Positions 2,174 through 16,499 of a stretch of DNA of 64,000 nucleotides are shown here, one piece after another; position 1 is the first letter of the stretch; every line of letters begins with the position of its first letter. The position numbers and the translations under genes were made by a program. The notes beneath the pieces were generated by a model. That model worked only from the letters and a program-made list of their open reading frames with translations. It did not search any database and was not told where the DNA came from. The stretch comes from Streptomyces iranensis (GTDB lineage: Bacteria > Actinomycetota > Actinomycetes > Streptomycetales > Streptomycetaceae), in NCBI RefSeq assembly GCF_017874715.1, contig NZ_JAGGLR010000026.1, positions 124,001-188,000 of the forward strand. Direction: 5' to 3'.

Positions 2174-2246
2174 GCGCTCGTAGCTTAACGGATAGAGCAC
2201 TTGACTACGGATCAAGAGGTTGCAGGTTCGAATCCTGCCGAGCGCG
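2174..2246 (+). tRNA. tRNA-Arg(ACG), integration target
   Basis: The tRNA has 73 nt, acceptor stem GCGCTCG/CGAGCGC, and anticodon stem CTTGA/TCAAG around loop CTACGGA (anticodon ACG). Its 3' part from the anticodon loop on recurs downstream as att cores. The tRNA stays intact because the left-end core of the first element restores its 3' half. Confidence 0.97.
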
Positions 2247-2248
2247 CA
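2205..2248 (+). repeat. att core copy 1 (attL, inside tRNA-Arg)
   Basis: This 44-bp core runs from the anticodon loop (CTACGGATC) to just past the tRNA 3' end (CGAGCGCGCA). It is identical at 16456, 27379 and 33390. Confidence 0.95.
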
Positions 2249-2327: not shown

Positions 2328-3482
2328 TTACCCCTCGAAGATGCGATCCATGGCGACGGCGCCGGTCTGGACCACCGGGCGGATCTGCTTCCGGTAGACC
2401 TCTTCCGTCACGGCCGTACCGGAGTGCCCGACGAGTCGGGAGATCTCTTCGAGCGGTACGCCGCTGTCCGACAGCAGCGACACGAAGCTGTGCCGCAGCT
2501 CGCGCGGAGTCCACTCCTCAGGGGCCATCCCCTTCACCTCGCCGAGGACCCGCCGGAAGTAGAGCCGGACGTTCGCCGCGTCCAACGCGGTACCGACGTC
2601 GGACGTGAAGACCAGCCCCTGTTCCTTCCACCGCGCTCCCGCTGCCTTGCGCTGGTGTGCCTGCTGCTCCCGGTGCTCCACCAGGGCAGCGACGCACCGA
2701 CCGGGCAGAGCGAGCGTTCTGCGGGACTTCCGGGTCTTGGTCTCCCCTCCCGCCCGCACGGAGCGCCATACGGCGATGTGCGGCGGGATCACCGGAACGG
2801 CGTCCGGTGATCCGTCCAGGTCCACGTGATCCCACGTGAGGGGCCGCAACTCTTCGGTACGGGCGCCGGTGAGCAGCGCGACCACGATGTAGGCGTGCAG
2901 CCGGGAGTCCTCCGCCGCATTCAGTACCGCCTCGGCCTGGGCGAGGGTGAGCGCCTTGGACGGGCGGCCCTCCCGCCCCTTCGGGATGGAGCACAGCTCC
3001 ACCACGTTGCGCTTCACCTTGTCCCGGGCCATGGCCCGCCGGATGGAGCGGTTGAGGAGTGAGTGCAGCAGTCGCAGTGTGCGGGTGCTGAGTTCCGGTG
3101 CCTTGGACGTGAGCCACCGGTCCACGTCGTCCGCGCTGAGGTCGCGAAGCTTCCGGGCGCCCAGCGCCGGTATCACGTGCTTCCCACAGAGGTTGGTGTA
3201 GTTGGCCACGGTCGCCGCGTCGACCTCGGTGAGGCCGTAGGTCAGCCAGTCGGTCACGGCCTTTTCGACGGTGTAGCCGGTGGGTGCGATGGCGAGACCG
3301 TCCTCATGGTCGCGGAGGACTTCCTTGAGCTTGTTCTTGGCCTCGGTCTTGGTCTTGCCGCTGCCGCGCTTCACGATCCGCTTGCCGCTGGGGTCGTAAC
3401 CGAGACTGGCGGTGGCGATCCAGCGCTGTCGCTTGTCGTCCCAGTGAAGTCCACCGTCGCCCCTGCTGCGGCGCTTGGTCAC
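2328..3482 (-). CDS. int: Tyrosine recombinase integrase of E1
   Basis: The integrase has 384 residues from a GTG at 3482 that overlaps the xis stop (GTGA). A longer open frame upstream is the shadow of the ATPase gene. The N-terminal part is an arm-binding and SAM-like core-binding region (WIATASLGYDPSGKR; VEKAVTDWLTYGL). The catalytic part contains TGARTEELRPLTW (first Arg), KTRKSRRTLALP (Lys), RELRHSF (second Arg; the usual box II His is Arg, as in many actinobacterial integrases), LVGHS (His) and EEVYRK (Tyr). It should catalyse integration at the tRNA-Arg core. It is the last gene of the leftward operon, next to attL, as expected. Confidence 0.95.
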   Translation of the reverse strand: MTKRRSRGDGGLHWDDKRQRWIATASLGYDPSGKRIVKRGSGKTKTEAKNKLKEVLRDHEDGLAIAPTGYTVEKAVTDWLTYGLTEVDAATVANYTNLCGKHVIPALGARKLRDLSADDVDRWLTSKAPELSTRTLRLLHSLLNRSIRRAMARDKVKRNVVELCSIPKGREGRPSKALTLAQAEAVLNAAEDSRLHAYIVVALLTGARTEELRPLTWDHVDLDGSPDAVPVIPPHIAVWRSVRAGGETKTRKSRRTLALPGRCVAALVEHREQQAHQRKAAGARWKEQGLVFTSDVGTALDAANVRLYFRRVLGEVKGMAPEEWTPRELRHSFVSLLSDSGVPLEEISRLVGHSGTAVTEEVYRKQIRPVVQTGAVAMDRIFEG

Positions 3483-3694
3483 TGCTGCTCTCCTGCCTCG
3501 CGCTCCAGGAGCGCGACGTACTCGCGAAGGGCGGACATGGGGATGAGGCGTGCGCGCCCCTCCTTGACGGAGCGCAGACGACCGGTGCGCATCAGGTCGT
3601 AGATGGTGTTCTTCGATTTGATGCCGAGAACCTTCATGGCGTCCGGCACGCGGTAGAGAAGGGGTGCGTCGCGTTCGGGTATGGCCAGCGTCAT
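3479..3694 (-). CDS. xis: Excisionase (HTH, Xis-like) of E1
   Basis: A 71-residue MerR/excisionase-type helix-turn-helix protein: YRVPDAMKVLGIKSKNTIYD followed by LRSVKEGRARLIP and a short helix. It lies directly upstream of int with a 4-bp overlap and overlaps the ATPase gene by 4 bp. Xis proteins bend DNA at the att arms and steer the integrase towards excision. Function is inferred from size, HTH and position. Confidence 0.85.
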   Translation of the reverse strand: MTLAIPERDAPLLYRVPDAMKVLGIKSKNTIYDLMRTGRLRSVKEGRARLIPMSALREYVALLEREAGEQQ

Positions 3695-4851
3695 GACGTC
3701 CTCCGGTTCGCGTGGGTGGGGCCGTCGGAATCGGACAGTCGGACACCCCGGGTTTCGGGCTGTCCGGGTAGTTCTGGCTGGTCAGCGGGGGTAACCGGAC
3801 AGTCGGACAGCTGGGACACCTCCGGGGTGCCCTCGTCCTGTGTCCGGTTTTCCGGTGGGAAGTACCGTCCGGCGCTGCCCTTGGTGAGCTGGCCGTCTGC
3901 GGCCATACGGGAGCAGGTGCGGCGGACGGTGTCGGCGTCGACCTCCGGGAGCGCCTGGACGATGTCCTTCGGCTTGGCACCGGGGTTGTTGCGGACGGCT
4001 CGGAGGATGGCGGCGCGGGTGTCGCCGATGGTGTGGTCGGTGACCGGGCCGTCCAGCATCTGCCAGGCGCCGGACGCCTGGTGGAGCGAGAGCGCGTATT
4101 CGGCTTCCTCCACGTCGCGGCCGGTGACGTGCAGAACCCCGTCCGCCTGCCCCCGGGAGCGCTTGAGCACCAGCGTGGCGTCAGCGGCGCCCGCGAGACC
4201 GTTGGTACCGGAGACCTCTGTGAGGAAGTCGTCCGAGCCTGCCTTGCGGACGTGGTGGACCAGGACGACGGCCACGCCGTAGTGGTCGGCGAGCCGCTTG
4301 GCGTGTCCGACAGCGGCGTAGTCGGCGTCGTAGGCGGAGGCACCTTGCGGGGAGGGGCCGCGCATCTTGGCGAACACGTCGATGACGACCATGCGGGCGT
4401 CCGGGTTGCGGTCGAGCCATCCGGCGATCGCCTCGTTCCCGCCCTGGGGCAGCGGCGGGCACTCGGTCACCAGGGTCAGCCCGGCCGGGGCGGGCTGACC
4501 GCCCAGCAGCTTGCCCATGCGGTTCTGGAGGCGGCGCGGGGTGTCCTCGAGTGCGAGGTAGAGCACGGGGCCGCCGTCCACGGGCACGCTGTCGAACGCC
4601 CTGCCCCCGGACGCGACCGCGAGCCCCAGGCCGAGGGACATCCAGGACTTGCCCACCTTCGGCGGTCCGGCGAGTAGGTTCACGCCTTCGGAGAGGAGTC
4701 CGGGCACGGCCCACTTGGGTTCGGGAAACTCGGTGGCCATGAGCTGATCGGCCGTCCACGCGGTGCGCGGCCGGGGCGGCGGTGGCGGCTGCTCGGGGTC
4801 CTGCTCGCGGGGGACGGAGTACAGGTGGAGCGGGGGGATGGGGTTGGTCAT
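3691..4851 (-). CDS. RecA/DnaB-like replication ATPase (RepA type)
   Basis: 386 residues from an ATG at 4851 that overlaps the prim-pol stop (ATGA). Walker A is AGPPKVGKSWM (about residue 60) and Walker B MVVIDVF. VLVHHVRKAG and SGTNGLAGAADATL match RepA/RSF1010-type hexameric ATPases used as replicative helicases. The C-terminal part (GDTRAAILRAVRNNPGAKP) looks like a winged helix. It forms a replication pair with the prim-pol protein. The last 50 codons contain repeated GGACAGTCGGACA motifs, so the 3' end may double as part of an origin. Confidence 0.85.
   Translation of the reverse strand: MTNPIPPLHLYSVPREQDPEQPPPPPRPRTAWTADQLMATEFPEPKWAVPGLLSEGVNLLAGPPKVGKSWMSLGLGLAVASGGRAFDSVPVDGGPVLYLALEDTPRRLQNRMGKLLGGQPAPAGLTLVTECPPLPQGGNEAIAGWLDRNPDARMVVIDVFAKMRGPSPQGASAYDADYAAVGHAKRLADHYGVAVVLVHHVRKAGSDDFLTEVSGTNGLAGAADATLVLKRSRGQADGVLHVTGRDVEEAEYALSLHQASGAWQMLDGPVTDHTIGDTRAAILRAVRNNPGAKPKDIVQALPEVDADTVRRTCSRMAADGQLTKGSAGRYFPPENRTQDEGTPEVSQLSDCPVTPADQPELPGQPETRGVRLSDSDGPTHANRRTS
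3731..3847. repeat. Iteron-like GGACAG/CTGTCC cluster inside the ATPase 3' end
   Basis: TCGGACAGTCGGACAC (3731), TGTCCGG (3760), CCGGACAGTCGGACAG (3795) and TGTCCGG (3840) are clustered. The 27 bp at 3792-3818 recur inverted and identical at 16132-16158. A role as origin or transfer locus is inferred. Confidence 0.6.
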
Positions 4852-5732
4852 GCCGCCACCTGCCGGGGGCGCCGGGCACCGGCCCGCAGACCGGAGGCGA
4901 TGGTGCGCCGTGCCTCGCGGTCGCTCTGGCCGACCTGGGCGGCGGCAGCGGCGAGCCATTCGGTCACGTCGTGCTCCGCCAGCTCGCCTCCGGCAACGAG
5001 CTGCCCGAGGGCGACGGACGCGAGGTACAGGGCGTTGTTGTGGCCGTCGTCCGGGGAGCGGGTGACCCTGGCGAGTTCGTCCTTGACCGCGCGGCGGAGG
5101 TAGGCGCCGTGCCGGTCGGTGGCCAGCGGGACGGTGACGGGTTGTTGCGGGGGCAGTGGTGCCGGGCGGAGCAGTTGCGCGAGCCAGCCCGGGAGCGGGG
5201 CTGCCGGGGCGTCATGGATGACGGTGTAGGTGCGGCCGTTGACGATGCTGCCCGCGCCGACGACGTAGCCGCCTGCCGCGCGGGTGTCGACCTTCCAGCC
5301 GAGTTTGCCCGCCGTGTTCCGCATCTCCTCCCCGGCCGGGGAGGTCAGGTACAGATGAATGCCGCCGCGTCCGGTGCGGACGGTGTGCGTCTGGTGCGGG
5401 TAGGGCTGCGCGTGCTGCTCGCACACCGCGCCCAGCACGTCCTCCCCGGTGGAGATACCCCGGGAAGCCCACTCGGCCGGCGGGGTGTCCTGCTCGCCTT
5501 TGGGGGTGTCGAGGTCGAGGACGACCAGCCCGGACGGGCCGGTGGCCACGCCGATGTTGTACGGGCCGGATGCCCAGCAGTGCGTGATGCGCTCGGGGTC
5601 CGTGGTCGCGCGCTCCTCCCACGCGCGGACCGCCGGGCGCTTGTCACCGGGGATGAGAGGGAAGACGTGCCAGCCGCGAGCGGCGGCGTCCAGCGCGGAC
5701 GCCATCTGTGCGGGTCGTGCGGGTTGCGGCAT
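4848..5732 (-). CDS. Bifunctional DNA primase/polymerase (prim-pol)
   Basis: 294 residues. The N-terminal prim-pol domain (archaeo-eukaryotic primase superfamily) shows GWHVFPLIPGDKRP, LVVLDLD (Asp73, Asp75), TVRTGRGGIHLY (His126) and GWKVDTRAAGGYVVGAGS (Asp149), the expected metal- and nucleotide-binding residues. A helical region follows (HNNALYLASVALGQLVAGG). Such proteins synthesise primers and extend them during replication of AICEs that lack RepSA. The ATPase gene follows with a 4-bp overlap. ATG start at 5732. Confidence 0.9.
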   Translation of the reverse strand: MPQPARPAQMASALDAAARGWHVFPLIPGDKRPAVRAWEERATTDPERITHCWASGPYNIGVATGPSGLVVLDLDTPKGEQDTPPAEWASRGISTGEDVLGAVCEQHAQPYPHQTHTVRTGRGGIHLYLTSPAGEEMRNTAGKLGWKVDTRAAGGYVVGAGSIVNGRTYTVIHDAPAAPLPGWLAQLLRPAPLPPQQPVTVPLATDRHGAYLRRAVKDELARVTRSPDDGHNNALYLASVALGQLVAGGELAEHDVTEWLAAAAAQVGQSDREARRTIASGLRAGARRPRQVAA

Positions 5733-5814: not shown

Positions 5815-5841
5815 GGTGCAGTGCGGTGGTGAGGGTTGTGG

Positions 5842-6099
5842 TCAGGCCGCGTTGCGGCGGTTGGCGGGGAAGTCGATGACCTGGGCGAGGCGGGCGGGCG
5901 TGGTCTGGGGCTTGCCCTTCATGCGGCCCTTGGGCGGCGGTTCGGGGGCCTCATCGGGCGGGCCGGGCCGGTAGGCGGCGCATACCGCGGCTTCGATGGC
6001 GTCGCGGCGGCGGGCGCGGCGGTGTCCGGCGAGGCACACCGGGCCGAGGATCGCGCCGGGCGCCAGCAGCGCGGCGGCGGTGATCAGTTCGGGGGTCAC
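5842..6099 (-). CDS. Small membrane-anchored hypothetical protein
   Basis: 85 residues from a GTG at 6099 overlapping the upstream stop (GTGA). One N-terminal hydrophobic helix (about residues 4-26, LITAAALLAPGAILGPVCLA) is followed by an Arg-rich stretch and a basic, Pro-rich tail. It is the last small gene before the prim-pol gene. I do not recognise the family; small membrane proteins are common in the spread/replication operons of AICEs. Confidence 0.7.
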   Translation of the reverse strand: MTPELITAAALLAPGAILGPVCLAGHRRARRRDAIEAAVCAAYRPGPPDEAPEPPPKGRMKGKPQTTPARLAQVIDFPANRRNAA

Positions 6100-6296
6100 G
6101 GGGTTTCTCCTCGGAGAGCGGCGAGGACGTCGGGGAGGTTGCCGCCGAGGGAGGCAAGGCGGCGTTCGATGGCCTGCCAGGACTCGGGATCGATACTCAT
6201 CAGCGCCCCGAGAGTCGCGGGCACATCGCCGCGCTGGTGGGCAGCGAGCGCATCGCGGAGTTCGCCAGCGGCCATGAGCGTGATGCGCTCGTTCAC
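6096..6296 (-). CDS. Hypothetical protein, 66 aa
   Basis: GTG start at 6296; the stop overlaps the next gene by 4 bp. Soluble, helical and acidic (ELRDALAAHQRGDVPATLGA, PESWQAIERRLASL). No recognised domain. The overlap and codon usage support it as a real operon member. Confidence 0.65.
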   Translation of the reverse strand: MNERITLMAAGELRDALAAHQRGDVPATLGALMSIDPESWQAIERRLASLGGNLPDVLAALRGETP

Positions 6297-6316
6297 GTGG
6301 ACCGGCCCCCTGAAGC

Positions 6317-6511
6317 TCAGTTGCCGATGCCGGTGATGGCGTCGGTGATGGAGGTGACGGTCTTGTTCACTGACGGGGCCGCGTCGGTGTTGGCGAGGTA
6401 GAAGCCGAACAGCACGGCGACGACAGCGGCCCCGGTGCGCAGGTGCCCGCCCTTGAACAGAGCACCCAGGCCGAGGGCGAGCAGCAGCACCAGGGAGACG
6501 GTGACGGTCAT
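6317..6511 (-). CDS. Two-TM small membrane protein
   Basis: 64 residues from an ATG at 6511 with GAAAGGGG upstream. Two hydrophobic helices (VSLVLLLALGLGALF; TGAAVVAVLFGFYLA) are followed by a polar tail (SVNKTVTSITDAITGIGN). A longer frame that begins upstream has no ribosome site and overlaps the zinc-finger gene. It resembles the small membrane proteins often found near transfer genes in Streptomyces elements; role unknown. Confidence 0.7.
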   Translation of the reverse strand: MTVTVSLVLLLALGLGALFKGGHLRTGAAVVAVLFGFYLANTDAAPSVNKTVTSITDAITGIGN

Positions 6512-6539
6512 GGGCGTGAGCCCCTTTCTGGGAGCAGGG

Positions 6540-6791
6540 TCAGCGGGTGCCGTCGCGGTGGATGCGAGCGGCGCGGTTGTAGAACCAGCGACCGGCGCGT
6601 ATGCGCTTGCCGTGGCCCTTGCAGCGGCGGCAGTCCTTGCCGCGCTTGGGACGTCCCTTGCGGTCGGTGGTCGTGGCGAAGCCGAAGCCATTGCACCTGC
6701 GGCAGGTTCCGAACGGGCTCGCCGCACACACCGATGCATAACCGAGCGTGACGACCAGCAGGCAGGCGATAGCGAGGAGGATCAGGGTCAC
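6540..6791 (-). CDS. DnaJ-type zinc-finger small protein
   Basis: 83 residues from a GTG at 6791 with GGAGG 7 bp upstream. An N-terminal membrane helix (LILLAIACLLVVTLGYASV) is followed by paired CRRCNGFGF and CRRCKGHGK motifs, the CxxCxGxG arrangement of DnaJ zinc fingers, then a basic tail. It is the first gene after the palindrome cluster, so it probably opens the replication/excision part of the operon. Similar proteins recur in Streptomyces plasmids and AICEs; function unknown. Confidence 0.75.
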   Translation of the reverse strand: MTLILLAIACLLVVTLGYASVCAASPFGTCRRCNGFGFATTTDRKGRPKRGKDCRRCKGHGKRIRAGRWFYNRAARIHRDGTR

Positions 6792-6833
6792 GAAGTGCCT
6801 CCGAGGGCGGGTTTCAGGGGTTTCCGCAGGTGG

Positions 6834-6925: not shown

Positions 6926-6932
6926 ATCCGAG

Positions 6933-9215
6933 TCAGCCCGCGTCGCGGTTTCGGTCACGCTCCGCAATCGCGGTGACGATGTGGGCGCGCTCGAAGCCGG
7001 TCCGGTTGACGGTCTTGCCGTTGATCCGCCGGGCCACCTGTCCGGTGGCCACGCCGTACGGCTTGAGCGCGGTGGTCAGCTGCCGCGCCTTGTCCGCCGG
7101 GGCCATCTCGCCCCACGCGCCGTATTTCTCCGGCCGCAGCTCGGCGAGGCGGTCGACGGTGACGTCGTTCCACGGCTTGGCCTCATCCGCCGGGACGACG
7201 GCGAGGATGTCCTCAAGCAGCGGATCCGCCACCTCGCGCCGCTCCGGCGTCTGACCGGCGGCGATACCGCGCAGCGTGCCCGCGTCGGCGCGTGCCTTGC
7301 GTGCGCGCTCGCAGATGGCGTCAGCTTCCTCGTTGTCCATGTAGTAGCCGCGCACGATCTGCGGTTCGTCGGCCGCGCCGACCAGGTAGCCGATGCCCTT
7401 GTCGGACCTGGTGAACGAGGTGGCGCGGATGCCGCTCTTGTACAGCGACGTGCCCAGGATCATGTCGTTCTCCAGCTGGCCCATGACTCGCAGGCAGAAG
7501 CGGGTGCCCACGTTCGCGCTGATTGCGGTGGGCAAAGAGTCCTTGTCCGGGCGCTGCGTGGCCAGCAGCAGGATCACCCCGAGCGCTCGGCCGCGCTTGA
7601 TGATGCCGGTGCACAGGGTCCCGGCTTCCTTGCCGTACTTCTCGTGGCTGAACAGTTCCTGGCATTCGTCGATGGCGAGCACCAGGGGGTGCAGTCCGAG
7701 GGAGCGGTTCGCGGCCAGTTCCGGGGTGACCTTGTTCTCCGGGCACTTGTCCTTGGGCAGGGAGCTGATGACCTTGGCCCGGCGCTCCAGGTCTTTGTAG
7801 ACGTAGCGGATGCAGTCCAGAGTTGCCGCGGCCGTTTCGTCGTCCGCGCCGGAACCGTAGTCGGCTGCCACCCGCTTGAGCGGGTCCAGGTCGCCGGTGC
7901 CCTTCAGCTCCCACACCAGCAGCTCAGCGAGCACATCCAGGGCCGAGGCCAGCAGCGCGGTACGCAGGCTGAACGTCTTGCCCATGCCGGGCATGGCGCC
8001 GATGAGGACGTTGTCGTACATCAGCGTGATGTCGACGTTCCGGCCGCGCTGGTCGGTGCCGAACGGCAGCGGCCTGAACAGCGATGCCGCCCCGGTCCTG
8101 GCCAGCGGCCATGCGGGCTTGGGCACCTTGTTCAGCGGCCGGTCGCCGACCCACAGCATCATCCGTCCGGCGTGCTCATCGGTGACCGGCTCGGGCCACA
8201 CGCAACCCAGCGGGCGGCGCAGGCCGGACGCGAGCTTTTCGCGCCGGTCGAGGATGTCCGGCACGGTTACGCCGTAGGGCAGGTCGACATCCGCGCGCCA
8301 GCCGGGGCCGTCGCGAGTGATCGGGGCAGGAAACCTGATGCCCTCCCCGCCCTTGGCGAGTGCCTTGTTGATCTCGGCGATGCCGAGTGCGCCCAGAGCG
8401 CGTTCCACGATGCCGCTCGTCAGTCGCTCGACTTCGGTCGTGACGACCGCGCGGGAGATGACGGGCTTGTCGGAGGGGGCGCCCAGGAAGCCGAATCCGG
8501 CTGTCAGCAGTGCCAGCACCAGCACCTCCAGCCAGGTGGGGGCGAGCACGAACAGCACGATGGCGAGTACCGGGCCGACGATCAGGCCGAGCAGCATGAG
8601 GATGCCGCGCAGCTTGACCCGGTGGTCGCGCTGCCGCGACAGCTTCAGGTACTCCTCGACGTTCTCGCGTCGGGCGGCGACCTGCCGCAGCGGCTCCCCC
8701 TCGGTGTCGGCGACCCACCGCAGGGTGCCGCCGACGAACTTCGCCAGCCCGGCCGGGGCCTGGAAGGCGAGTCGGGCGGAGTACCAGGGCAGGCGCACCG
8801 CGTGGAAGGCGGTGGTGTGCCAGGCGTAGCCGCCGAGCCAGCCGATCGCGTTGACGAACTCCGGTTTGGATGTCGCCCAGGCCGGGATCACCTCGCGCCG
8901 CTGCCCGGCCCGGAGTCGGTCCATCAGACCCGGACCGGACGGGGCCGGACCGTCGACCATCACGACCGACGCGTCATCCGACTCACCGTCTCCCGAGTCG
9001 TCCGACCGGTCGGCATCCGCAGGAGTCGACTCGGTCGGCTCGGAGTCGGGCGACGCGTCGGCGTCGGGTCGGGTGGTGGGGTTGGCCGACTCGGCACGGG
9101 CGGACCGGGCCTTGCTGAAGTCGACCACCTCGCCCCCGGGGCCGGGCGAAAAGTCGGCGGCTATCTCAGCTTCGAGCCGGTCGAAGAATTCGTTGTCGTC
9201 GTCGGGGTGGTTCAC
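6933..9215 (-). CDS. FtsK/SpoIIIE-type conjugal DNA translocase of E1
   Basis: 760 residues from a GTG at 9215 preceded by GGAAGGAACC; an ATG at 9260 is possible but has no ribosome site. An acidic, Asp/Ser-rich N-terminus (about 1-110) precedes a membrane-associated region, then two TM helices around residues 205-250 (GLIVGPVLAIVLFVLAP). The motor domain has Walker A GAMPGMGKTFS (about 406) and Walker B LAIDECQEL (about 510), plus LLATQRPDKDS. This is the TraB/TraSA-type protein that pumps double-stranded plasmid DNA between mycelia. It sits mid-operon between accessory transfer genes and replication genes. Confidence 0.93.
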   Translation of the reverse strand: MNHPDDDNEFFDRLEAEIAADFSPGPGGEVVDFSKARSARAESANPTTRPDADASPDSEPTESTPADADRSDDSGDGESDDASVVMVDGPAPSGPGLMDRLRAGQRREVIPAWATSKPEFVNAIGWLGGYAWHTTAFHAVRLPWYSARLAFQAPAGLAKFVGGTLRWVADTEGEPLRQVAARRENVEEYLKLSRQRDHRVKLRGILMLLGLIVGPVLAIVLFVLAPTWLEVLVLALLTAGFGFLGAPSDKPVISRAVVTTEVERLTSGIVERALGALGIAEINKALAKGGEGIRFPAPITRDGPGWRADVDLPYGVTVPDILDRREKLASGLRRPLGCVWPEPVTDEHAGRMMLWVGDRPLNKVPKPAWPLARTGAASLFRPLPFGTDQRGRNVDITLMYDNVLIGAMPGMGKTFSLRTALLASALDVLAELLVWELKGTGDLDPLKRVAADYGSGADDETAAATLDCIRYVYKDLERRAKVISSLPKDKCPENKVTPELAANRSLGLHPLVLAIDECQELFSHEKYGKEAGTLCTGIIKRGRALGVILLLATQRPDKDSLPTAISANVGTRFCLRVMGQLENDMILGTSLYKSGIRATSFTRSDKGIGYLVGAADEPQIVRGYYMDNEEADAICERARKARADAGTLRGIAAGQTPERREVADPLLEDILAVVPADEAKPWNDVTVDRLAELRPEKYGAWGEMAPADKARQLTTALKPYGVATGQVARRINGKTVNRTGFERAHIVTAIAERDRNRDAG

Positions 9216-9296
9216 TGAAGGTTCCTTCCAATCGGGAGGGATAGGCGGGGCCCGGTGCATCGCTTTGGTCGGTTGAGGACCGGGCCCCGTGTGGGG

Positions 9297-9665
9297 TTAT
9301 GCGGCGAGTGCTTGAGTGGCGGCGCACGTGGTGCACACGCCGAGTGAGGTGGGGAGGGTGTAGCCCGCGTCGCGTCGGCACTGCGGGCAGAAGCGGCGGG
9401 CCGCGTTTGCCTTCGCCAGCGCGGCCCATTTCGCCGCTGTCATCGGGCGCACGGGCTTGGCGAGGTCGAGGCGGTACAGGTACGCGGTCCGTACCCGACG
9501 GCCGTAGCGGCGGGAGCGCCACATGAGTTGGGCAGCGATCTCCTGCCCGCCCGGCCGGAGCCCCCTGGCACGCAGCTGCCGACGGGTGGCCAAGCCATCC
9601 GGGGCCAGACGCCATGGGTAGGTCGGGACGCCGTACCGCTTGCCGGTCGGGTCGTAGAACCTCAA
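9297..9665 (-). CDS. RRQRL-motif-like zinc-binding protein
   Basis: 122 residues with a TTG start at 9665 that overlaps the DUF2637 stop (TTGA). It contains YPWRLAPDGLATRRQLRARG and LRPGGQ, close to the RRQRL motif of a small actinobacterial family, and two Cys pairs near the C-terminus (FCPQCRRDAG; CTTCAA) that probably bind zinc. Members are common in AICE transfer operons, between DUF2637 and FtsK genes as here. The molecular function is not known. Confidence 0.75.
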   Translation of the reverse strand: MRFYDPTGKRYGVPTYPWRLAPDGLATRRQLRARGLRPGGQEIAAQLMWRSRRYGRRVRTAYLYRLDLAKPVRPMTAAKWAALAKANAARRFCPQCRRDAGYTLPTSLGVCTTCAATQALAA

Positions 9666-10699
9666 GCGGCTTCACCCTCGGTCTGGCCGGTCCCCTCCTC
9701 CGGCTCGTCCACGGCGTGCAGCGGGCGCCCGCCAGAGGCACGCTCGGCCTTCAGCGCGTCGCGCAGTGAGCGGGCGTGCTTCGCGCTACAGCGGAGCTCC
9801 TGGCGGATCGGTTCGGCCTTCAGCCGCTCCTCGGGCCAGTTGGCCGTGACCTTGCGGGCCTCGGTGAGCAGCTCATCGAAACCGCGGGCCTTCCGGCTGG
9901 GCTTGGCTGCCCTGCCCGGCCGCCGTCGCGGCTTCGGTTCGGCCTTGGGCTCCTCGGCCTGGTGCTGCTTCTGCTTCGGCTCCTCCGGGGGCGGGGGTGC
10001 CGGCACCGGGTCCGGCTCGGCTGCGCTGGCGGGGGCCTGGTCGCCGAGCTTGAGCAGCACGCGTTCCCGGCGGGGGGTCTTCGAGCGCCATCGCCACCCG
10101 TGCTGTTCACGCAGCTCGGCGCGGGCCAGCTGCCGCTCGCGCTCGCGGGCGAGTGCGTCGGCGTAGGAGGTGATCTCCCACAGAGTCATGCGGCGCCACA
10201 GAGCGAACGTCGACAGCGGAGCGAGCAGCCAGCGCGAACGCCGGATCCGCTCCATGCGGCTGCCGATCGCCGCGCCGATCCGCACCGCGTAGACATGCGC
10301 GGCCACCTCGGAGAGCACCACCCACAGCAACGGCATCGTCCCGTGCGCGACCTTGGCCGAGAGCGAGTGCCCGGACGCGATGTTCAGCCAGCAGGTGACC
10401 AGCGTCAGCGCCCACGGCACGAAGCGGACCCACGCGAGCGGCATGTTCATCCGGATCAGCAGCAGGTTCGCCACGGTGAACACCGGCACGGCAGCGTCGA
10501 TGCCCACCGGCAGCATCCACGGATACCGGAAGCCCCAGCGGGCCCCGGCCGCCGATACCGCGTCGAACGATGCCGCGAACCCCAGTCCGCCCACGCCGAT
10601 GCCCGCAGCACCGACCACGAGCAGCAGAATCCTTTCCATGCGGGACAGCGGCGGTACCTGCGGAGCGGTGGCCTGGTCGGTCTCGGCCGCGATGGTCAT
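9662..10699 (-). CDS. DUF2637 membrane protein with long charged tail
   Basis: 345 residues from an ATG at 10699 that shares its A with the GGDEF stop (TGATG). The N-terminal half (about 20-150) has four TM helices typical of DUF2637 (LLLVVGAAGIGVGGLGFAAS; YPWMLPVGIDAAVPVFTVAN; WALTLVTCWLNIASGH; LLWVVLSEVAAHVYA). The C-terminal half is cytoplasmic, with Pro/Lys/Glu-rich linkers and a helical segment (IRQELRCSAKHARSLRDALK) like a DNA-binding helix-turn-helix. DUF2637/SpdB-like proteins are thought to help intramycelial spread. Confidence 0.85.
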   Translation of the reverse strand: MTIAAETDQATAPQVPPLSRMERILLLVVGAAGIGVGGLGFAASFDAVSAAGARWGFRYPWMLPVGIDAAVPVFTVANLLLIRMNMPLAWVRFVPWALTLVTCWLNIASGHSLSAKVAHGTMPLLWVVLSEVAAHVYAVRIGAAIGSRMERIRRSRWLLAPLSTFALWRRMTLWEITSYADALARERERQLARAELREQHGWRWRSKTPRRERVLLKLGDQAPASAAEPDPVPAPPPPEEPKQKQHQAEEPKAEPKPRRRPGRAAKPSRKARGFDELLTEARKVTANWPEERLKAEPIRQELRCSAKHARSLRDALKAERASGGRPLHAVDEPEEGTGQTEGEAA

Positions 10700-11583
10700 C
10701 ACGAGGCCCCTTCCGCATCGTTGTCCGGGGCAGGGCCGCAGACGCAGTTCTCCGGGGCGGCGCCCTGGCCGATCGAGCAGGCGCAGCACAAGCCAAGCGG
10801 CTCGATGACCTCGCCCGGCGCCATCGTGCAGTGGTCGCACTGGCCGGTGTCCGGCTGCCACTCCTGCGCGTCCTCGAACTCTTCGTCTTCGAAGTCGTCG
10901 TAGTCGTCGGCCTCTTCGAAGAGGTCGTAGCCGTCGTAGCGGGAGCTCATGGGGTCCTCGTTGCTGGTGCCGGGGCGGCCGTCGCGGCGGCCGTTGACCG
11001 TGCGGTAGACGGGCGCGGTGTTGTCGGTGATGGCCCAGCCGCCACCGGCCTGCTTGGCCTGGTACATCGCCTCATCCGCCCGGCGAAGCGCGACGGACAG
11101 GGCGGGGGCGGGATGGGGGCCGTGGTAGGCGCCGATCGAGGCACGCAACGGGATCACGCGGCCGTCGAGCTCCACCGGCTCACAGATCATCCGGTGCAGC
11201 GTTGACAACTCCACGGGCAGATCCGACGGGTGCGGCATGCTGACGACGGCGGCGAACTCATCCCCGCCCAACCGGCCAACGGCTCCGTTCTGCACGTGCA
11301 CCCAGACACCCAGGCGCTCACCGACCGCGCGGATGGTCGCGTCCCCGGCCGCGTGGCCCATCGTGTCGTTCAGAGCCTTGAAGCCGTCCAGATCGATGAG
11401 CAGCACCGCGCACCGCTCCTTGCGCAGCAGCTGCGCGGCGTGCTTCTCGAACGCGGCCCGGGTGGGCAGGCCGGTGAGCGGGTCGCGGCGGGCCCGGTCG
11501 AGGCTGCGGCGGAACCACAGCCCATGGGCGGCCCATCCGGTGGCCAGCGGGGCGGCGGCGGCCACGGTGTGCAGGGCGCTCAT
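10699..11583 (-). CDS. GGDEF (diguanylate cyclase) protein of E1
   Basis: 294 residues from an ATG at 11583 overlapping the previous stop (ATGA). A short N-terminal hydrophobic stretch is followed by a GGDEF domain (about 30-185): DPLTGLPTRAAF, LLIDLDGFKALND, GRLGGDEFAA (active site 106-110) and LRRADEAMYQAKQ. The active-site motif is intact. The inhibitory RxxD site is absent (VQNG at that position), so product feedback is not expected. The C-terminal 90 residues are acidic and end in a Cys-rich part (CDHC, CCAC, CVCG) that may bind zinc. It should make cyclic di-GMP, which in Streptomyces controls BldD and development. Confidence 0.85.
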   Translation of the reverse strand: MSALHTVAAAAPLATGWAAHGLWFRRSLDRARRDPLTGLPTRAAFEKHAAQLLRKERCAVLLIDLDGFKALNDTMGHAAGDATIRAVGERLGVWVHVQNGAVGRLGGDEFAAVVSMPHPSDLPVELSTLHRMICEPVELDGRVIPLRASIGAYHGPHPAPALSVALRRADEAMYQAKQAGGGWAITDNTAPVYRTVNGRRDGRPGTSNEDPMSSRYDGYDLFEEADDYDDFEDEEFEDAQEWQPDTGQCDHCTMAPGEVIEPLGLCCACSIGQGAAPENCVCGPAPDNDAEGAS

Positions 11584-11894
11584 GCCGCCGCCTTCCTCGA
11601 GGAATGGCGGGTGCGTGCGGTGGACCGCAGCAGCGGGACCGCCTTGGTCAGCTCCTGGGCGTAGAGCGCGTCCCATCCGGCGATCTCATCGCCAGCGGCA
11701 GCAACCTCACGCAGGTCGCGCAAGACCTCCCGCGCCACGGCCAGCCGTGCCCGGCGGTCCTTGGCCGACTCCGGGTGCGGCGGACCGACGAACAAGTCAC
11801 GGTCCAGGCCAACGGGCCCCTCATCGAAGCCGAAAGCCAACTCCTCGAACTCAGAGGCAGTGACAGCCTCTTGATCTCCTATGTATGTACGCAT
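11580..11894 (-). CDS. Hypothetical protein, 104 aa
   Basis: ATG at 11894 with AGGAG upstream; the stop overlaps the GGDEF gene by 4 bp. Acidic N-terminus (ASEFEELAFGFDEGPVGLD), then a helical region rich in Arg/Ala/Glu (RRARLAVAREVLRDLREVA). Soluble, no family recognised. The tight overlap suggests co-translation with the GGDEF protein. Confidence 0.7.
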   Translation of the reverse strand: MRTYIGDQEAVTASEFEELAFGFDEGPVGLDRDLFVGPPHPESAKDRRARLAVAREVLRDLREVAAAGDEIAGWDALYAQELTKAVPLLRSTARTRHSSRKAAA

Positions 11895-11939
11895 CGTGGA
11901 ACTCCTGCTGCCTGATCAGGCAGGGGGTAGGACCCGGGA

Positions 11940-11966
11940 CGGTCGCGGTCTTTGGCGAGAGGGCGA
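11940..11966. repeat. 27-bp repeat shared with 5781-5807
   Basis: Identical to the copy in front of the prim-pol gene. This copy lies 46 bp upstream of the 104-aa gene, in a gap of about 150 bp, and also sits in a G+C-rich imperfect hairpin. Confidence 0.7.
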
Positions 11967-12045
11967 GCCGCCCCGGGCATCAAGGGAAGTGGCAGGGCGG
12001 CCGCACACCGCTCGCGGAATGCGGCCGCCCTGACACAAGCGGGGA

Positions 12046-12168
12046 CTACTTCTTGCCGCCCTTGAAGACCTGGAAGGCCCCGTTCTTCGGGGTCGGCGGG
12101 TTGGTCGCACCGGGGTCACGGCGCGGCAGCGGCGGAGGCGGCGTCTGGGGCTTTTCCTTATGAGCCAT
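12046..12168 (-). CDS. Small basic proline-rich protein, 40 aa
   Basis: ATG at 12168; the frame overlaps the end of the 45-aa gene by 11 bp. The sequence is Lys/Pro-rich (KEKPQTPPPPLPRRDPG) and ends GGKK. No family recognised. It follows two other overlapping micro-genes, which supports translation. Confidence 0.5.
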   Translation of the reverse strand: MAHKEKPQTPPPPLPRRDPGATNPPTPKNGAFQVFKGGKK

Positions 12169-12295
12169 GGCGCTGCCCCCGGATGGCTTCGGCGGCCCGT
12201 CGCGCCGCTTCGGCCGCCGCGGCGGCCTGGCGGGCAGACTCGATCCGCTGCTGGGCGAGCGCGTCAGCGGCCTGCTGCTCGGCAATCTCGCTCAT
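12158..12295 (-). CDS. Ala-rich coiled-coil micro-protein, 45 aa
   Basis: ATG at 12295 with GGGAGG 6 bp upstream; it overlaps the stop of the 34-aa frame (ATGA). The sequence is one predicted amphipathic helix (DALAQQRIESARQAAAAAEA, then ARRAAEAIRG). No family recognised. Confidence 0.5.
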   Translation of the reverse strand: MSEIAEQQAADALAQQRIESARQAAAAAEAARRAAEAIRGQRHGS

Positions 12296-12396
12296 CGGGA
12301 GCCTCCCGCCCGGACGAGCCGCGGGGCCTCGTCCATGTCCGGGTCGCTGTTGCCGGGGTTCGCGGCGAGGACGCCGCGTGTCATGCTGGTGATCAC
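12292..12396 (-). CDS. Micro-protein, 34 aa
   Basis: GTG at 12396 with GAGG 7 bp upstream. The stop overlaps the start of the next frame by 4 bp, the coupling pattern seen in the larger genes of this operon. The peptide (TRGVLAANPGNSDPDMDEAP) has no recognised motif. The length is marginal, so the call rests mainly on the overlap and ribosome site. Confidence 0.4.
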   Translation of the reverse strand: MITSMTRGVLAANPGNSDPDMDEAPRLVRAGGSR

Positions 12397-12521
12397 AGGT
12401 TGCCTCTCATGCAGGTGCCTGTCGCGGTCCCTGGGGTGCCACCCGGGGGCCGCTTTTCGTTGAAGTCGGGGGGTCCCGGCTCCCCTCACCGCCCGTGCGA
12501 GATGGGCGGATCGGGCAACCG

Positions 12522-12728
12522 TCAGCGGGCGTCAGGCAGGCGCCGCCACCGGGGCAGCTGCTTCTCAGCGGCGTTCACCTTGCTGTTGGCGGCCACGAAC
12601 TCATCGGTCTCGTCGTGCAGCCCGGCACGACGATCGCGGTCACTGACCTCGGCCAGCTCCTGCCTCGCGGCGCGGTGTGCGGCACGCGCCTCCCGTGTGC
12701 CAATCAGCCTGTCGATACGTGCACCCAT
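12522..12728 (-). CDS. Charged helical small protein, 68 aa
   Basis: ATG at 12728 with GGGAGGAGCC upstream. Highly charged and helical (EARAAHRAARQELAEVSDRD; DEFVAANSKVNAAEKQLPRW). Soluble; no family recognised. It lies within the chain of small genes upstream of the GGDEF and DUF2637 genes. Confidence 0.6.
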   Translation of the reverse strand: MGARIDRLIGTREARAAHRAARQELAEVSDRDRRAGLHDETDEFVAANSKVNAAEKQLPRWRRLPDAR

Positions 12729-12767
12729 CAGGGCTCCTCCCGGATTAGTGGTGCGAGACGGTCCGTC

Positions 12768-12801
12768 CCGGCTCCCCTCGACCCCGCCCATACGGCACCG
12801 C
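12768..12801. repeat. 34-bp intergenic repeat, copy 1
   Basis: Starts CCGGCTCCCCTCGACCCCGC and matches 13608-13641 at 33 of 34 positions, exactly 840 bp away. Both copies lie just upstream of small leftward genes. A shortened version begins near 12476. Confidence 0.7.
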
Positions 12802-12850
12802 GCAGAAGCGTCCCGGGCGGGCGGATCGGGCAGTTGTCAGTCGGGGCGGG

Positions 12851-13030
12851 TCACGGGCTCCTGAGTTCGCCGAGCTGGTCGAGCTCTCGGTTGATCTCGG
12901 AGTGGACGAGGTTGGCCATCCGGGTGTCGCCCCGGTTCTCAGCGGCCTGTGCGACCTGCGACAGGGCGGTGATCTCCTCTTGGGTGTTCTGCTGGTTGAC
13001 CGGTTCGTTGCGGCGGAAGTCCCACGCCAT
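12851..13030 (-). CDS. Small hypothetical protein, 59 aa
   Basis: ATG at 13030 with GAGAGGACTCC upstream, stop at 12851. The protein starts MAWDFRRNEPVNQQNTQEEI and continues with a helical segment (ALSQVAQAAENRGDTR, ANLVHSEINRELDQLGEL). Soluble. I do not recognise the family, but coding character and ribosome site are good. Confidence 0.6.
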   Translation of the reverse strand: MAWDFRRNEPVNQQNTQEEITALSQVAQAAENRGDTRMANLVHSEINRELDQLGELRSP

Positions 13031-13121
13031 GACGGAGTCCTCTCGATTCGTTCAGCCGGACTGTCCGGCCACCGCCCCCCGTAGCGACGCTCAGCCGCTA
13101 CGGGGGACAGAAGCGGGGCGG

Positions 13122-13580
13122 TCAGCGGTAGTCGTAGACGAAGGAAGCGGCAGACTCCCGCAGCGCGGTGTGTGCCTTCCGGGCCTGCAGACCCGCCGCA
13201 TCCAACTCGGCCTCGGGGACATCCCCGAGCGCCATCGCCGCGTCAACTGCCTCCTGCGCAACCGCGAGCAGGGCACGGTCCTGCGTGGCCATGAACAAGC
13301 TGTCCATGGCGCTGGTGACCGCCGTCCGTGCCGCATAGCGGGTCTGCCGCGCCTCGGCGGTATCGGGCTGCCCTTCACGGCGCGCCACGATCTTCAGGTA
13401 CTGCTGTTCACGGTGGCGGGCCAGTCCGGCCAGCAAGGCCGGGATCGCTTCGGCGAGCGCCTGACGACGACGCTCAGCGGCAGCAGAACGGGCGGTACGC
13501 GTGGCCGTCAGGTGCTGCATGAACCCAGCGACCACGGCCCCGGCGAGCGTGCCCAATACAGCGATGAGTGTTGTGATCAC
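13122..13580 (-). CDS. Membrane-anchored coiled-coil protein, 152 aa
   Basis: GTG at 13580 with TGGGAG upstream. One N-terminal TM helix (ITTLIAVLGTLAGAVVAGFM) is followed by a long Ala/Arg/Glu-rich helical region (ARSAAAERRRQALAEAIPAL; EAVDAAMALGDVPEAELDAA). It is the first gene after the operator/boxA-like leader, so it heads the leftward transfer operon. Similar TM-plus-helix proteins occur in Streptomyces elements; no function known to me. Confidence 0.7.
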   Translation of the reverse strand: MITTLIAVLGTLAGAVVAGFMQHLTATRTARSAAAERRRQALAEAIPALLAGLARHREQQYLKIVARREGQPDTAEARQTRYAARTAVTSAMDSLFMATQDRALLAVAQEAVDAAMALGDVPEAELDAAGLQARKAHTALRESAASFVYDYR

Positions 13581-13607
13581 GTGATCTCCCAAGCGGTGAG
13601 ATGGTGT

Positions 13608-13641
13608 CCGGCTCCCCTCGACCCCGCCCGTACGGCACCGC
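13608..13641. repeat. 34-bp intergenic repeat, copy 2
   Basis: Second copy of the repeat at 12768, upstream of the 152-aa gene; one mismatch (A to G). Confidence 0.7.
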
Positions 13642-13776
13642 ATACAGCGGCCCGGACGGGCGGAGGAGGCAACCGGCCGCCGCGAGTCACGCGGCGGAAG
13701 GGTCGAAGAGTGCGCGGGTCGTGCTCCGCGCGGGCCGCCTTCTTTGAGCTGAGGACAGGCGGTAGATCCTCGGTCC

Positions 13777-13801
13777 GCTGTTGAGTTCTCAAGGAACGAG
13801 C
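13777..13801 (-). promoter_or_regulatory. boxA-like antitermination sequence in operon leader
   Basis: On the minus strand the leader reads CGTTCCTTGAGAACTCAACA, which I recall from the boxA region of actinobacterial rRNA leaders and spacers. It lies between the operator-covered promoter near 13.9 kb and the first gene at 13580. Role inferred. Confidence 0.5.
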
Positions 13802-13874
13802 ACTTCCTTAAACCCCCTTGTGAAGGGCTTCCGGGCGCCGTTCAGCACCGCTGAGGGGAGCGACTCCCGCCCAT

Positions 13875-13913
13875 CTGGTGCGCACCAGTAGGACAACATC
13901 TGGTGCGCACCAG
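13875..13913. promoter_or_regulatory. Two CTGGTGCGCACCAG operators
   Basis: Perfect 14-bp palindromes at 13875-13888 and 13900-13913, 25 bp apart and each preceded by AT. A minus-strand TTGACT (13919-13914) abuts the second one. The same half-sites occur in TGGTGCGTACCA at 16026, in front of the GntR-Nudix gene, so that protein is the likely repressor. Confidence 0.8.
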
Positions 13914-14032
13914 AGTCAAGCTCATTCGCCGAATCGGGTGGTGATCGCCCTCGGTGGTGCATCTCCAGAAGACCGGTCCAAGGGGGTGATCCGGTAGCCA
14001 ACAGGGCTTAACTTCGGCACTGTTAACCCCTG

Positions 14033-14061
14033 TTGACCTGCGGAAATGTGAGGCATGCTGT
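14033..14061 (+). promoter_or_regulatory. Possible promoter of the XRE-TPR gene
   Basis: TTGACC at 14033-14038 is followed after 17 bp by TGCTGT (14056-14061), about 37 bp before the GTG start. Weak match to consensus. Confidence 0.35.
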
Positions 14062-14097
14062 GAGGGTCAGTCAGTTGCCCATGCCGGACGGTGAGCA

Positions 14098-15228
14098 GTG
14101 AGCACGGGACTTCGAAGCGCGCGGTCTGCCCGAGGCTGGTCCCAAGAACGCCTGATACGCGAGATCGAGCGGTACGCCAGAGAGCACATCCTTGATGTCG
14201 CGTCGACAGCGAGTCTTCGCGTCTACGTCTCCGAGTGGGAGAACGGCAAGCGCGCCATTTCCGACCGCTATGCGGCCATTCTGCGGCCGCTTCTCGGCAT
14301 CACGGACTCAGAACTGAGAGACGTCCCGACCGCCGCCGCTCCGGCCGTAGCCGACGGGTATGACGAACTCCTGCTTCGCATCGACTCAGCGAGCAGCGTC
14401 AGCCCGTCCATGGTCAAGGCGTTCTATGACCAGACGGAGTTGTTCCGAACGATGGACCGGGAGAAGGGCGCTGGCCGCCTCATCGACCAGATGGCGGAAC
14501 ACCTGAGTTCCCTCGAAGAGGCCCTCAACTTCACTGTGTTGCCCGACACGCGTCAGCCCGTGGCCGTCGCGCTGGCCGGGGCCTCCACGCTCGCAGCGTG
14601 GCAGGCGCTCGATTCAGGAGCGGTCGAACGCGCGTGGAGGCACTACGAGCTTGCCAAGAGGGCCGCACGTGACGCTGACGCGCCGATGTACCTCGCCCAT
14701 GCGATGGCGGAGCAGGCGTACGTGCTGAGCGAGGCTGGTCGGCCGGCACTCGGCGTCTCTCTCGTTCGGGACGCACAGCGCAGCCTTGGAAAAGCTGGCT
14801 CGCCAAGGCTCCGGGCGTGGCTGCATGCCGCAGAAGCGGAACTCTGCGCCCATGCCGACTTGCCTGACGATGCCCTTCGCGCGCTTGAGGTAGCTGACGC
14901 AGCGATCCCGTCCGGGCCGGAGGACCGCGACCCGGACATGCTGAGCATCTTCCTGAACACCTCCCACCTCACGCGGTGGCGCGGAAACGTCTTGGCCATG
15001 CTGGGCGACGGCGAAGCAGTGAGCAGTCTTTACGAGGCTCTCGGTACCGCAGACCCGACGTTCGTGCGTGCCAAAGCAGGGCTGCACTGCGATCTGGTTA
15101 AGGCACACCTGGCCCGCGCCGAGTACGACGACGCGCAGACGCACTTGCGGCAGGCGCGACTACTGGCGAGCCGTGCGGGGTCCGTGCGGCAGCGTCGCCG
15201 CGTCGATCTCCTCAGTTCGAGGCTGTAA
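14098..15228 (+). CDS. XRE-type HTH regulator with TPR-like repeats (E1)
   Basis: 376 residues from a GTG at 14098. An N-terminal helix-turn-helix (about 1-70: RSARSARGWSQERLIREIER, VYVSEWENGKRAIS) is followed by a long all-helical region with TPR-like repeats (MAEQAYVLSEAGRPALGVSL; LRARAEYDDAQTH-type helices near the end). Such proteins in Streptomyces couple DNA binding to peptide or partner sensing. It is transcribed away from the transfer operon across the operator region and ends tail to tail with the GntR-Nudix gene (17-bp overlap). It could act as activator of the operon, as Pra does in pSAM2, but it is not a Pra homologue. Confidence 0.8.
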   Translation: MSTGLRSARSARGWSQERLIREIERYAREHILDVASTASLRVYVSEWENGKRAISDRYAAILRPLLGITDSELRDVPTAAAPAVADGYDELLLRIDSASSVSPSMVKAFYDQTELFRTMDREKGAGRLIDQMAEHLSSLEEALNFTVLPDTRQPVAVALAGASTLAAWQALDSGAVERAWRHYELAKRAARDADAPMYLAHAMAEQAYVLSEAGRPALGVSLVRDAQRSLGKAGSPRLRAWLHAAEAELCAHADLPDDALRALEVADAAIPSGPEDRDPDMLSIFLNTSHLTRWRGNVLAMLGDGEAVSSLYEALGTADPTFVRAKAGLHCDLVKAHLARAEYDDAQTHLRQARLLASRAGSVRQRRRVDLLSSRL

Positions 15229-16018
15229 CGCCCTGCTTCCGGCGGGTCGCCAGGATGTGGAGCAGGGCCACAAGGGTGCCGGAGCCCATGAGGTCACCGC
15301 GGGCCATCAGCGCGGGGATGTCCGCCAATGGCACCCACTCGATTTGCCCTGCCTCTTCCAGGTCCGTGGGCGAGCCGACCTGTTCGGCTCCATGCGCCAC
15401 GAAGATCTCATGCGGTGAGTCGACCATGCCCACCATGGGCTGATAGGTGACGACGTGCTCCACAGACTTCGGGCGCCAGCCGGTCTCCTCCTCGACTTCC
15501 CGGACCGCCGTAGCGGCAGGGCTCTCGCCCTCGTCCACAATGCCGCCGGGGAGCTCCCATCCGAACTGCTGGGGAACGAAGCGGTACCGCCACATCATGA
15601 GCACGCGGTCTTGGTCGTCTAGCACAGCGACGATGGCTACGTGGTGCAGCTTCACCACGTGATGCTCGAAGCGCTCCACACCGGGCGGCTCGACGTCCCA
15701 GACGTCGAGTTTTACCCAGCGGTTGTCATAGATGGTCCGCTCACCGTGGATGCGCCAGGGCTCCGGCCCTTCGGGAGTCTCCACGCTCACACCGCCAGGG
15801 ACGCGGTACGAGCTTCGGCCGCGCACCTCCAGGGCTCCCTCAGCCACCAGTCGCGCCAGCACCTGCCGGAGCGCAGTACGGCCGATGCCGAGTTGCTCCA
15901 CGAGAGCACGCTCAGACGGCAGCTTCTCTCCGGGCTCAAGTTCGCCGGACGCGAGCCACTCACGAATCGTCTCGTAGACCTTGGTCGTCTTCGGTCCCAT
16001 CCGGGGCGCACTCTCCAT
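15212..16018 (-). CDS. GntR-Nudix fusion (KorSA-Pif-like regulator/immunity protein)
   Basis: 268 residues from an ATG at 16018 (a second ATG at 16000 is also possible). Residues 8-75 form a GntR winged helix (VYETIREWLASGELEPGEKL, SERALVEQLGIGRTALRQVL). Residues 100-260 form a Nudix hydrolase with a perfect Nudix box at 159-181 (Gly159, Glu165, REVEEETG). In pSAM2 a GntR repressor (KorSA) controls transfer and a Nudix protein (Pif) gives conjugal immunity; here the two functions appear joined. The gene starts 8 bp from an operator that matches the pair at 13875-13913, which suggests autoregulation and repression of the transfer operon. Confidence 0.85.
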   Translation of the reverse strand: MESAPRMGPKTTKVYETIREWLASGELEPGEKLPSERALVEQLGIGRTALRQVLARLVAEGALEVRGRSSYRVPGGVSVETPEGPEPWRIHGERTIYDNRWVKLDVWDVEPPGVERFEHHVVKLHHVAIVAVLDDQDRVLMMWRYRFVPQQFGWELPGGIVDEGESPAATAVREVEEETGWRPKSVEHVVTYQPMVGMVDSPHEIFVAHGAEQVGSPTDLEEAGQIEWVPLADIPALMARGDLMGSGTLVALLHILATRRKQGVTASN

Positions 16019-16025
16019 TCTGAGG

Positions 16026-16403: not shown

Positions 16404-16455
16404 TACCGCAGGTCAGATCATGCGCCTGAGCTGGCCAAACGGCGCTCTTAATTGC

Positions 16456-16499
16456 CTACGGATCAAGAGGTTGCAGGTTCGAATCCTGCCGAGCGCGCA
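16456..16499 (+). repeat. att core copy 2 (E1/E2 junction)
   Basis: Identical over 44 bp to the core in tRNA-Arg; the 5' half of the tRNA is absent. Confidence 0.95.

Follow-up and report, generated by a model that had tools for sequence, protein, structure and literature searches.

We report that a family of GGDEF diguanylate cyclase genes of the CdgD type recurs in streptomycete conjugative elements of several kinds, which appears to be novel. The gene under study lies in a 64,000-nucleotide stretch of Streptomyces iranensis DNA (contig NZ_JAGGLR010000026.1, positions 124,001 to 188,000; hereafter the window, with positions counted from its first letter), where a first-pass annotation made from the letters alone had placed it in a conjugation operon. 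It is indeed carried by a 14.25-kb conjugative element, an actinomycete integrative and conjugative element (AICE), at 2201-16499 with tRNA-Arg repeats at both ends. The tRNA-Arg gene is located at 2174-2247, with further copies of its 3' end (2201-2248) at 16452, 27375 and 33386; because of the repeat at 16452, the GGDEF gene falls inside the element. Along with the tRNA attachment (att) repeats, the element has the integrase, the replication genes and the TraB-type translocase of an AICE. The best reading we can offer, to which we give about an even chance, is that an element-borne, feedback-insensitive cyclase raises cyclic di-GMP (c-di-GMP) and delays sporulation while the element spreads.

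The catalytic domain of the window protein comprises residues 32-181 (Pfam PF00990, 2.7e-31), and its sequence includes LIDLDGFKALNDTMGHAAGD and, further on, VGRLGGDEFAAV. By sequence, its nearest solved structures are bacterial diguanylate cyclases (4zmm, 8.1e-20), and alignment to solved cyclases including 4zmm showed that the metal, substrate and catalytic residues of the GGDEF domain are present. The RxxD position is occupied by VQNG, so that this site is absent, and the earlier claim of an intact active site without RxxD was thus confirmed. The same applies to the claimed coupling to both neighbours. The start of the gene overlaps the upstream open reading frame (ORF; 11580-11894) by 4 nucleotides (ATGA), while its stop codon TGA gives its A to the ATG of the downstream DUF2637 gene (TGATG). 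The neighbourhood also agrees with the first-pass annotation, with genes for a DUF2637 protein, an RRQRL zinc-binding protein and a TraB/FtsK-type protein (Table 1; gene calls in the window and in all loci come from our own coding-score script, not from a standard gene finder). The acidic, Cys-rich C-terminal tail of the window protein, which begins at about residue 212 (10699-10950, minus strand) and had been proposed to tether the enzyme to the transfer site, fared differently: it is limited to the window protein and to L123, a relative with 89% identity to it (2/93 loci) and was not found there as a separate ORF, and we rejected it as a shared tether. Another tail after the GGDEF domain, with the motif GRRxGRxG, is present in 63/93 members, the window protein included, and in 0/16 pSAM2-type members.

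The window gene is an additional member of the known CdgD-type family. Published work is cited below by PubMed Central number, for the passages available to us. The named CdgD proteins are SCO5345 of S. coelicolor, which is cdgD in Table 1 of PMC7911125, SVEN3999 of S. venezuelae and SSFG_02343 of S. ghanaensis (PMC7911125, PMC6205966). The S. ghanaensis protein, CdgDgh, is described as a stand-alone GGDEF protein that has kept its active site and is without RxxD, with genes of no known function in the same operon (PMC7911125). Likewise, the window protein is a stand-alone GGDEF protein with a short N-terminal segment and no RxxD, its C-terminal tail being an addition, and it was likened to the named CdgD proteins by their published descriptions, not their sequences; the cut-off used for CdgD in PMC6205966 was at least 45% identity to the S. 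venezuelae protein.

A protein search of 199 Streptomyces genomes, including the one that holds the window, yielded 92 relatives, hand-picked among the matches listed for alignments that extend to the N-terminal end of the query (G103, one of the 92, begins at residue 26) and spread over 69 of the 198 other genomes. All 93 frames, window included, have kept GGDEF and none has RxxD, a pattern beyond chance. Among the gene calls, 92/93 show GGDEF, since the L135 call was cut short; its open frame holds GGDEF without RxxD, as do those of L132 and L212. In the alignment of 89 members (A1, without L132, L135, L212 and L213; the trees are without the first three, whose gene calls were cut short), the relatives are 38-89% identical to the window protein, every member matches PF00990, and 21 columns are invariant, including D64, K69, N72, D73, G76, H77, G80, D81, R104 and G106-F110. 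According to our own mapping, the positions that PMC7911125 gives for PleD as metal-binding, substrate-binding or catalytic fall in invariant columns. Seventeen chosen close pairs gave ratios of nonsynonymous to synonymous substitution rates (dN/dS) of 0.07-0.55, showing that the gene is under purifying selection. The predicted CdgD-type protein is very probably an active cyclase. A GGDEF protein devoid of cyclase activity that serves as a binding or structural protein would be compatible with the activity of the window protein being a prediction and with the insolubility of the S. ghanaensis protein, CdgDgh, which precluded an in vitro assay (PMC7911125). However, we consider such a role very improbable in view of the invariant catalytic and substrate positions over 89 members and of the activity reported for S. 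coelicolor CdgD (as stated in PMC7911125).

To place these genes in their surroundings, we searched up to 20 kb around each relative with iterated profiles built from the window proteins. A TraB-type gene was found within about 10 kb of 70/92 relatives, DUF2637 near 33/92, RRQRL near 40/92 and an integrase near 49/92, and at least one of TraB, DUF2637 and RRQRL was present at 79/92 loci. When the finished profiles were applied to a second set, made up of nine loci from additional Streptomyces genomes and 25 from other genera of Streptomycetaceae, TraB was present at 29 of these 34 loci and at least one of the three at 32. A rough chance expectation for TraB is 0.4% of 20-kb windows (based on 123 such genes over 70 genomes, each of about 8.6 Mb), with the true expectation being higher, as the TraB profile is looser than the two queries behind this figure. 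None of 63 generic GGDEF loci (those longer than 15 kb among 80 loci, L043-L122) had TraB, which is a weak control because these loci come from other taxa. The survey of AICEs that the first-pass annotation had called for showed that the gene recurs in them.

In a quick tree, 91 members were separated as a single clade from six further GGDEF proteins encoded by the genome that holds the window (support of 99 in the SH-like approximate likelihood ratio test, SH-aLRT). This tree leaves out four odd rows (L209, L210, L214 and L012) that may be outside the family because they grouped with three outgroup rows in the first tree (support 87), whose other three outgroup rows were faulty. At one of them, L012 on plasmid NZ_CP108072.1, an annotated Pycsar-effector-family gene (400-879) lies two genes upstream of the GGDEF gene. 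Labels of locus layout cluster on the gene tree (27 changes versus a shuffled mean of 65, with 0/200 shuffles as low), and the gene therefore seems to be mostly inherited with the element type, not acquired anew. A family profile separated members (at least 207 bits) from other proteins (at most 175 bits). A scan of the class, with 10 candidates scored per genome, returned 16 matches in 11/28 genomes of the own genus and members in 0/268 genomes of other genera, while a scan of the family found members in 18/51 genomes of sister genera. The CdgD-type family is thus confined to Streptomycetaceae in this sample. Development in this family is governed by c-di-GMP, and the range of the gene fits our hypothesis without proving it.

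The gene occupies several kinds of position. It is located before DUF2637 in the window type (layout UP1-GGDEF-DUF2637-RRQRL-TraB-PrimPol), after DUF2637, in pSAM2-type elements with spd genes on one side and RepSA on the other, in the second-set loci L270, L271 and L273 between TraB and a primase gene, or on linear plasmids, several of which have RRQRL genes nearby. The pSAM2-type locus L208 reads FtsK/TraB, DUF2637, SpdB (PF05122, 7.5e-30), ORFs of 52 and 103 amino acids, GGDEF, an ORF of 60 amino acids, RepSA (equivalog, 790 bits), a helix-turn-helix gene and integrase, with the DUF2637 family (PF10935) sitting between TraB and SpdB. The 18.45-kb circular record NZ_CP107792.1 has annotated integrase, FtsK, RRQRL, GGDEF and DUF2637 genes together, the last two overlapping by 4 nucleotides, so that an element of like kind occurs in circular form, too. 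The gene overlapped both of its neighbours at 27/90 loci with usable gene calls, 26 of which belong to layouts A, B and E.

These positions bear on CdgD itself. The S. coelicolor genes SCO5336-5349 are those of an integrated plasmid that resembles pSAM2 (PMC3017869), SCO5344 is the 107-amino-acid protein SpdD2 (PMC3087755), and an AICE Sco5349 is named in PMC3218068. Because the published ranges place SCO5345 within SCO5336-5349 and beside SpdD2, we take S. coelicolor CdgD to be, in all probability, an AICE gene. In many pSAM2-type loci the sizes follow the order of about 105 amino acids, GGDEF, about 60, about 465, about 65 and integrase, which would fit SCO5344-5349. The window gene differs from SCO5345 in that it has no pSAM2-type layout (inferred in the case of SCO5345) and an extra Cys-rich tail. 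Part of the link between AICEs and c-di-GMP is already in print, since PMC8388888 notes that pSAM2 encodes a GGDEF protein (S. ambofaciens RS19305), a target of a small RNA, and recalls the control of BldD by c-di-GMP; like the window protein, it is, by its published description, encoded by an AICE, and the passage on it names neither CdgD, spread nor pocks. The plasmid-encoded pCdgG of S. venezuelae (pvnz37430; PMC6205966) is likewise a stand-alone GGDEF protein borne by a mobile element, and the single GGDEF match that plasmid record NZ_CP018075.1 gave, which we took as pCdgG, fell in the plasmid clade of the family. It differs in being on a linear plasmid, where its 8-kb flanks hold WhiB and Lsr2 genes but no annotated TraB. 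Cyclases that alter the physiology of the carrier are also known from other mobile elements, namely DgcK and DgcL of SXT/R391 integrative and conjugative elements (ICEs) and Dgc137 of a Vibrio island (PMC10672970); compared from the literature only, these differ in that their elements belong to Gram-negative bacteria, with biofilm and motility as output and no sporulation programme. In the literature searched, mostly without subscription papers, we found no link of CdgD to mobile elements or of c-di-GMP to pocks.

Conjugation in Streptomyces is classically recognised by eye from pocks, zones in which the recipient mycelium sporulates late as a plasmid or AICE moves through it. Spread delays recipient development and sporulation (PMC9513070), and the parts of the literature examined describe the pock delay without a molecular cause. 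We propose that the CdgD-type cyclase is a component of the mobile element and stands outside the c-di-GMP network of the host itself. As the gene overlaps transfer-region genes on both sides, the cyclase should be made during excision and spread, and its co-expression with the transfer genes is quite likely; without an RxxD site for inhibition by its product, it would escape that form of feedback. With the added c-di-GMP, the host regulators BldD and RsiG-WhiG would stay in the state that blocks sporulation, newly invaded mycelium would be held in vegetative growth while the element passes through, and the pocks would be partly due to the cyclase of the element. We infer expression with transfer (from gene overlap only), a c-di-GMP rise in recipients and a benefit to spread. 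That the cyclase delays recipient development in favour of spread is, in our estimate, a little short of an even chance, and a strong form of the idea, in which a spread-induced cyclase floods the mycelium, locks BldD and RsiG-WhiG, and causes or enlarges the pock, with CdgD being a gene of the parasite, is put forward tentatively and with some doubt. An element cyclase in the transfer and spread region would connect late sporulation in pocks with the developmental signal that is best understood in Streptomyces, and the recurrence of CdgD-type genes in conjugative elements makes the pock question testable with one inactivating change. If true, Streptomyces conjugative elements would carry a dedicated device that seizes a developmental signal of their host, and CdgD, which has been studied as a host enzyme, would be theirs.

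Going by the title of Liu 2019, CdgD overexpression reportedly blocks development in S. coelicolor. The same applies to S. ghanaensis, in which overexpressed cdgD arrests development (PMC7911125), and to this extent the sporulation delay suggested by the first-pass annotation agrees with published work. Several observations weigh against it. Deletion of cdgD had no developmental effect in S. venezuelae (PMC6205966) or S. ghanaensis (PMC7911125), although the passages on these knockouts concern pure culture and describe no matings, a setting in which transfer genes are possibly silent. S. venezuelae CdgD-FLAG could hardly be detected, and deletion of cdgDgh lifted moenomycin to 136% (PMC7911125), suggesting a role outside spread. 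BldD boxes were not in excess in the window (6 matches versus 5.4 expected from shuffles). Loci of the pSAM2 type rarely overlap their neighbours (downstream 0/16, upstream 1/16, both 0/16), and the range of the family alone is no test because the genomes of other families in the sample are without the gene, whether mycelial or not. Furthermore, TraB, DUF2637 and RRQRL were all missing at 13/92 loci. Of these 13, seven belong to the plasmid clade of the first tree (L159, L166, L173, L186, L188, L190 and L206), L210 groups with a plasmid row and L212 has an integrase nearby; the other four (L138, L144, L156 and L160) had no transfer gene in the stretch fetched, of at most 20 kb, and are perhaps domesticated copies, L160 having an element-borne copy 14 kb away on its contig. 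In the first tree, these four form one clade beside the element-borne L141.

The lack of a phenotype in the knockouts could also mean that the cyclase works locally, near the Spd/TraB complex, on a transfer component or on an element-coded receptor, with little global effect. This is consistent with the way in which the gene, in window-type layouts, overlaps DUF2637 and other genes of the transfer region, with a conserved GW..H segment near the N-terminus (81/93) and with the speculation in PMC7911125 on a local c-di-GMP micro-compartment for CdgDgh, which was not obtained in soluble form. On the other hand, no c-di-GMP receptor domain was recognised among the 11 proteins scanned of the element's 20 gene calls, the neighbours of the gene vary between element types, and overexpression affects development as a whole. 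The N-terminal segment is also weakly hydrophobic, with a mean hydropathy of 1.6 reached by 18/87 members and a value of 1.04 for the window protein, which makes it a poor candidate for a membrane anchor. Taken together, we regard purely local signalling as rather unlikely.

The preferred reading, a cyclase that delays sporulation during spread, also has to accommodate the patchy presence of the gene. In 70 genomes, a relative among the matches listed was found within 10 kb of 11/27 TraB genes of the window type (E-values up to 1e-60) and of 4/96 of the pSAM2 type (up to 1e-40), counts that would miss lower-scoring relatives. The gene is therefore accessory, most TraB loci being without it, and elements evidently manage without it, which again weighs against the preferred reading. 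An accessory gene could be cargo for the benefit of the host, a cyclase that tunes antibiotic output or stress physiology of its carrier and rides in the operon. The raised moenomycin level upon cdgDgh deletion and the fact that cyclases are known cargo of Vibrio ICEs (PMC10672970) are in line with this explanation, but freely exchanged cargo would not be expected to show layout labels that cluster on the gene tree, nor does the overlap with both transfer-region neighbours at 27/90 loci speak for a passenger, and we deem this explanation improbable.

Table 1. Features of the GGDEF-bearing element (window positions; aa, amino acids)
Feature	Position	Strand	Remarks
att repeat = 3' end of tRNA-Arg	2201..2248	+	
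Integrase of the GGDEF-bearing element, next to tRNA-Arg	2328..3482	-	called as a gene; matches the INT profile made in this work
Excisionase-like small protein	3479..3694	-	by position and size
AAA-domain, replication-type protein	3691..4851	-	PF13481, 7.7e-39
Bifunctional primase/polymerase	4848..5705	-	PF09250, 1.3e-46
Four small ORFs (85, 66, 64, 83 aa), TraB to primase gene	5842..6791	-	coding-score calls
TraB/FtsK-type DNA translocase, 760 aa	6933..9215	-	phrog_1358 FtsK/SpoIIIE-like, 1.8e-30
RRQRL motif-containing zinc-binding protein	9297..9665	-	NF041638, 9.6e-46
DUF2637 protein, overlapping GGDEF gene downstream	9662..10699	-	PF10935, 1.6e-16
CdgD-type GGDEF diguanylate cyclase (predicted)	10699..11583	-	294 aa; ATG start
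Small conserved protein, 104 aa, overlapping GGDEF gene upstream	11580..11894	-	
Divergent regulator, NsdA-family, TPR-like	14098..15228	+	NF053720, 5e-43, 148 bits, cut-off 75
GntR-Nudix protein, Pif-like by domain make-up	15212..16000	-	PF00392 and PF00293
att repeat, other element end, 98% identical	16452..16499	+	

For the other genes of the element (Table 1), the TraB-type protein matched the NCBIfam model plasmid_TraB weakly (2.9e-8, far under the cut-off) and had no Pfam match at 0.1. The 104-amino-acid protein had no Pfam or NCBIfam match, and a profile built from it matched in 27/93 loci, window included; further small ORFs lie between its gene and that of the divergent NsdA-family regulator. 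NsdA is a negative regulator of differentiation, and the presence of a relative in the element is a second developmental hint rather than evidence of function. ORFs with sizes akin to those of the four small ones recur in loci of like layout. The GGDEF-bearing element has no RepSA, by which the pSAM2 family is recognised; instead of this pSAM2 protein it has the AAA (PF13481) and primase/polymerase (PF09250) proteins. RepSA is found in the neighbouring element 2 (PF20199, 528 bits), which is thus pSAM2-type, and the integrase at 16589 is likewise part of the neighbouring element, not of the GGDEF-bearing one.

A defence-system reading of the GGDEF gene was considered and dropped, as PADLOC gave no match for the gene or its two neighbours. 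The window has three tandem stretches at one tRNA-Arg (2201-33433), delimited by four 48-nucleotide att copies at 2201, 16452, 27375 and 33386. The third of them, 27375-33433, gave no match to the integrase profile built here and is possibly non-autonomous defence cargo; its genes include a Thoeris ThsB TIR-like one (31678-32118; PDLC00431, 3.8e-57), one with a deaminase domain and one for a 515-amino-acid protein.

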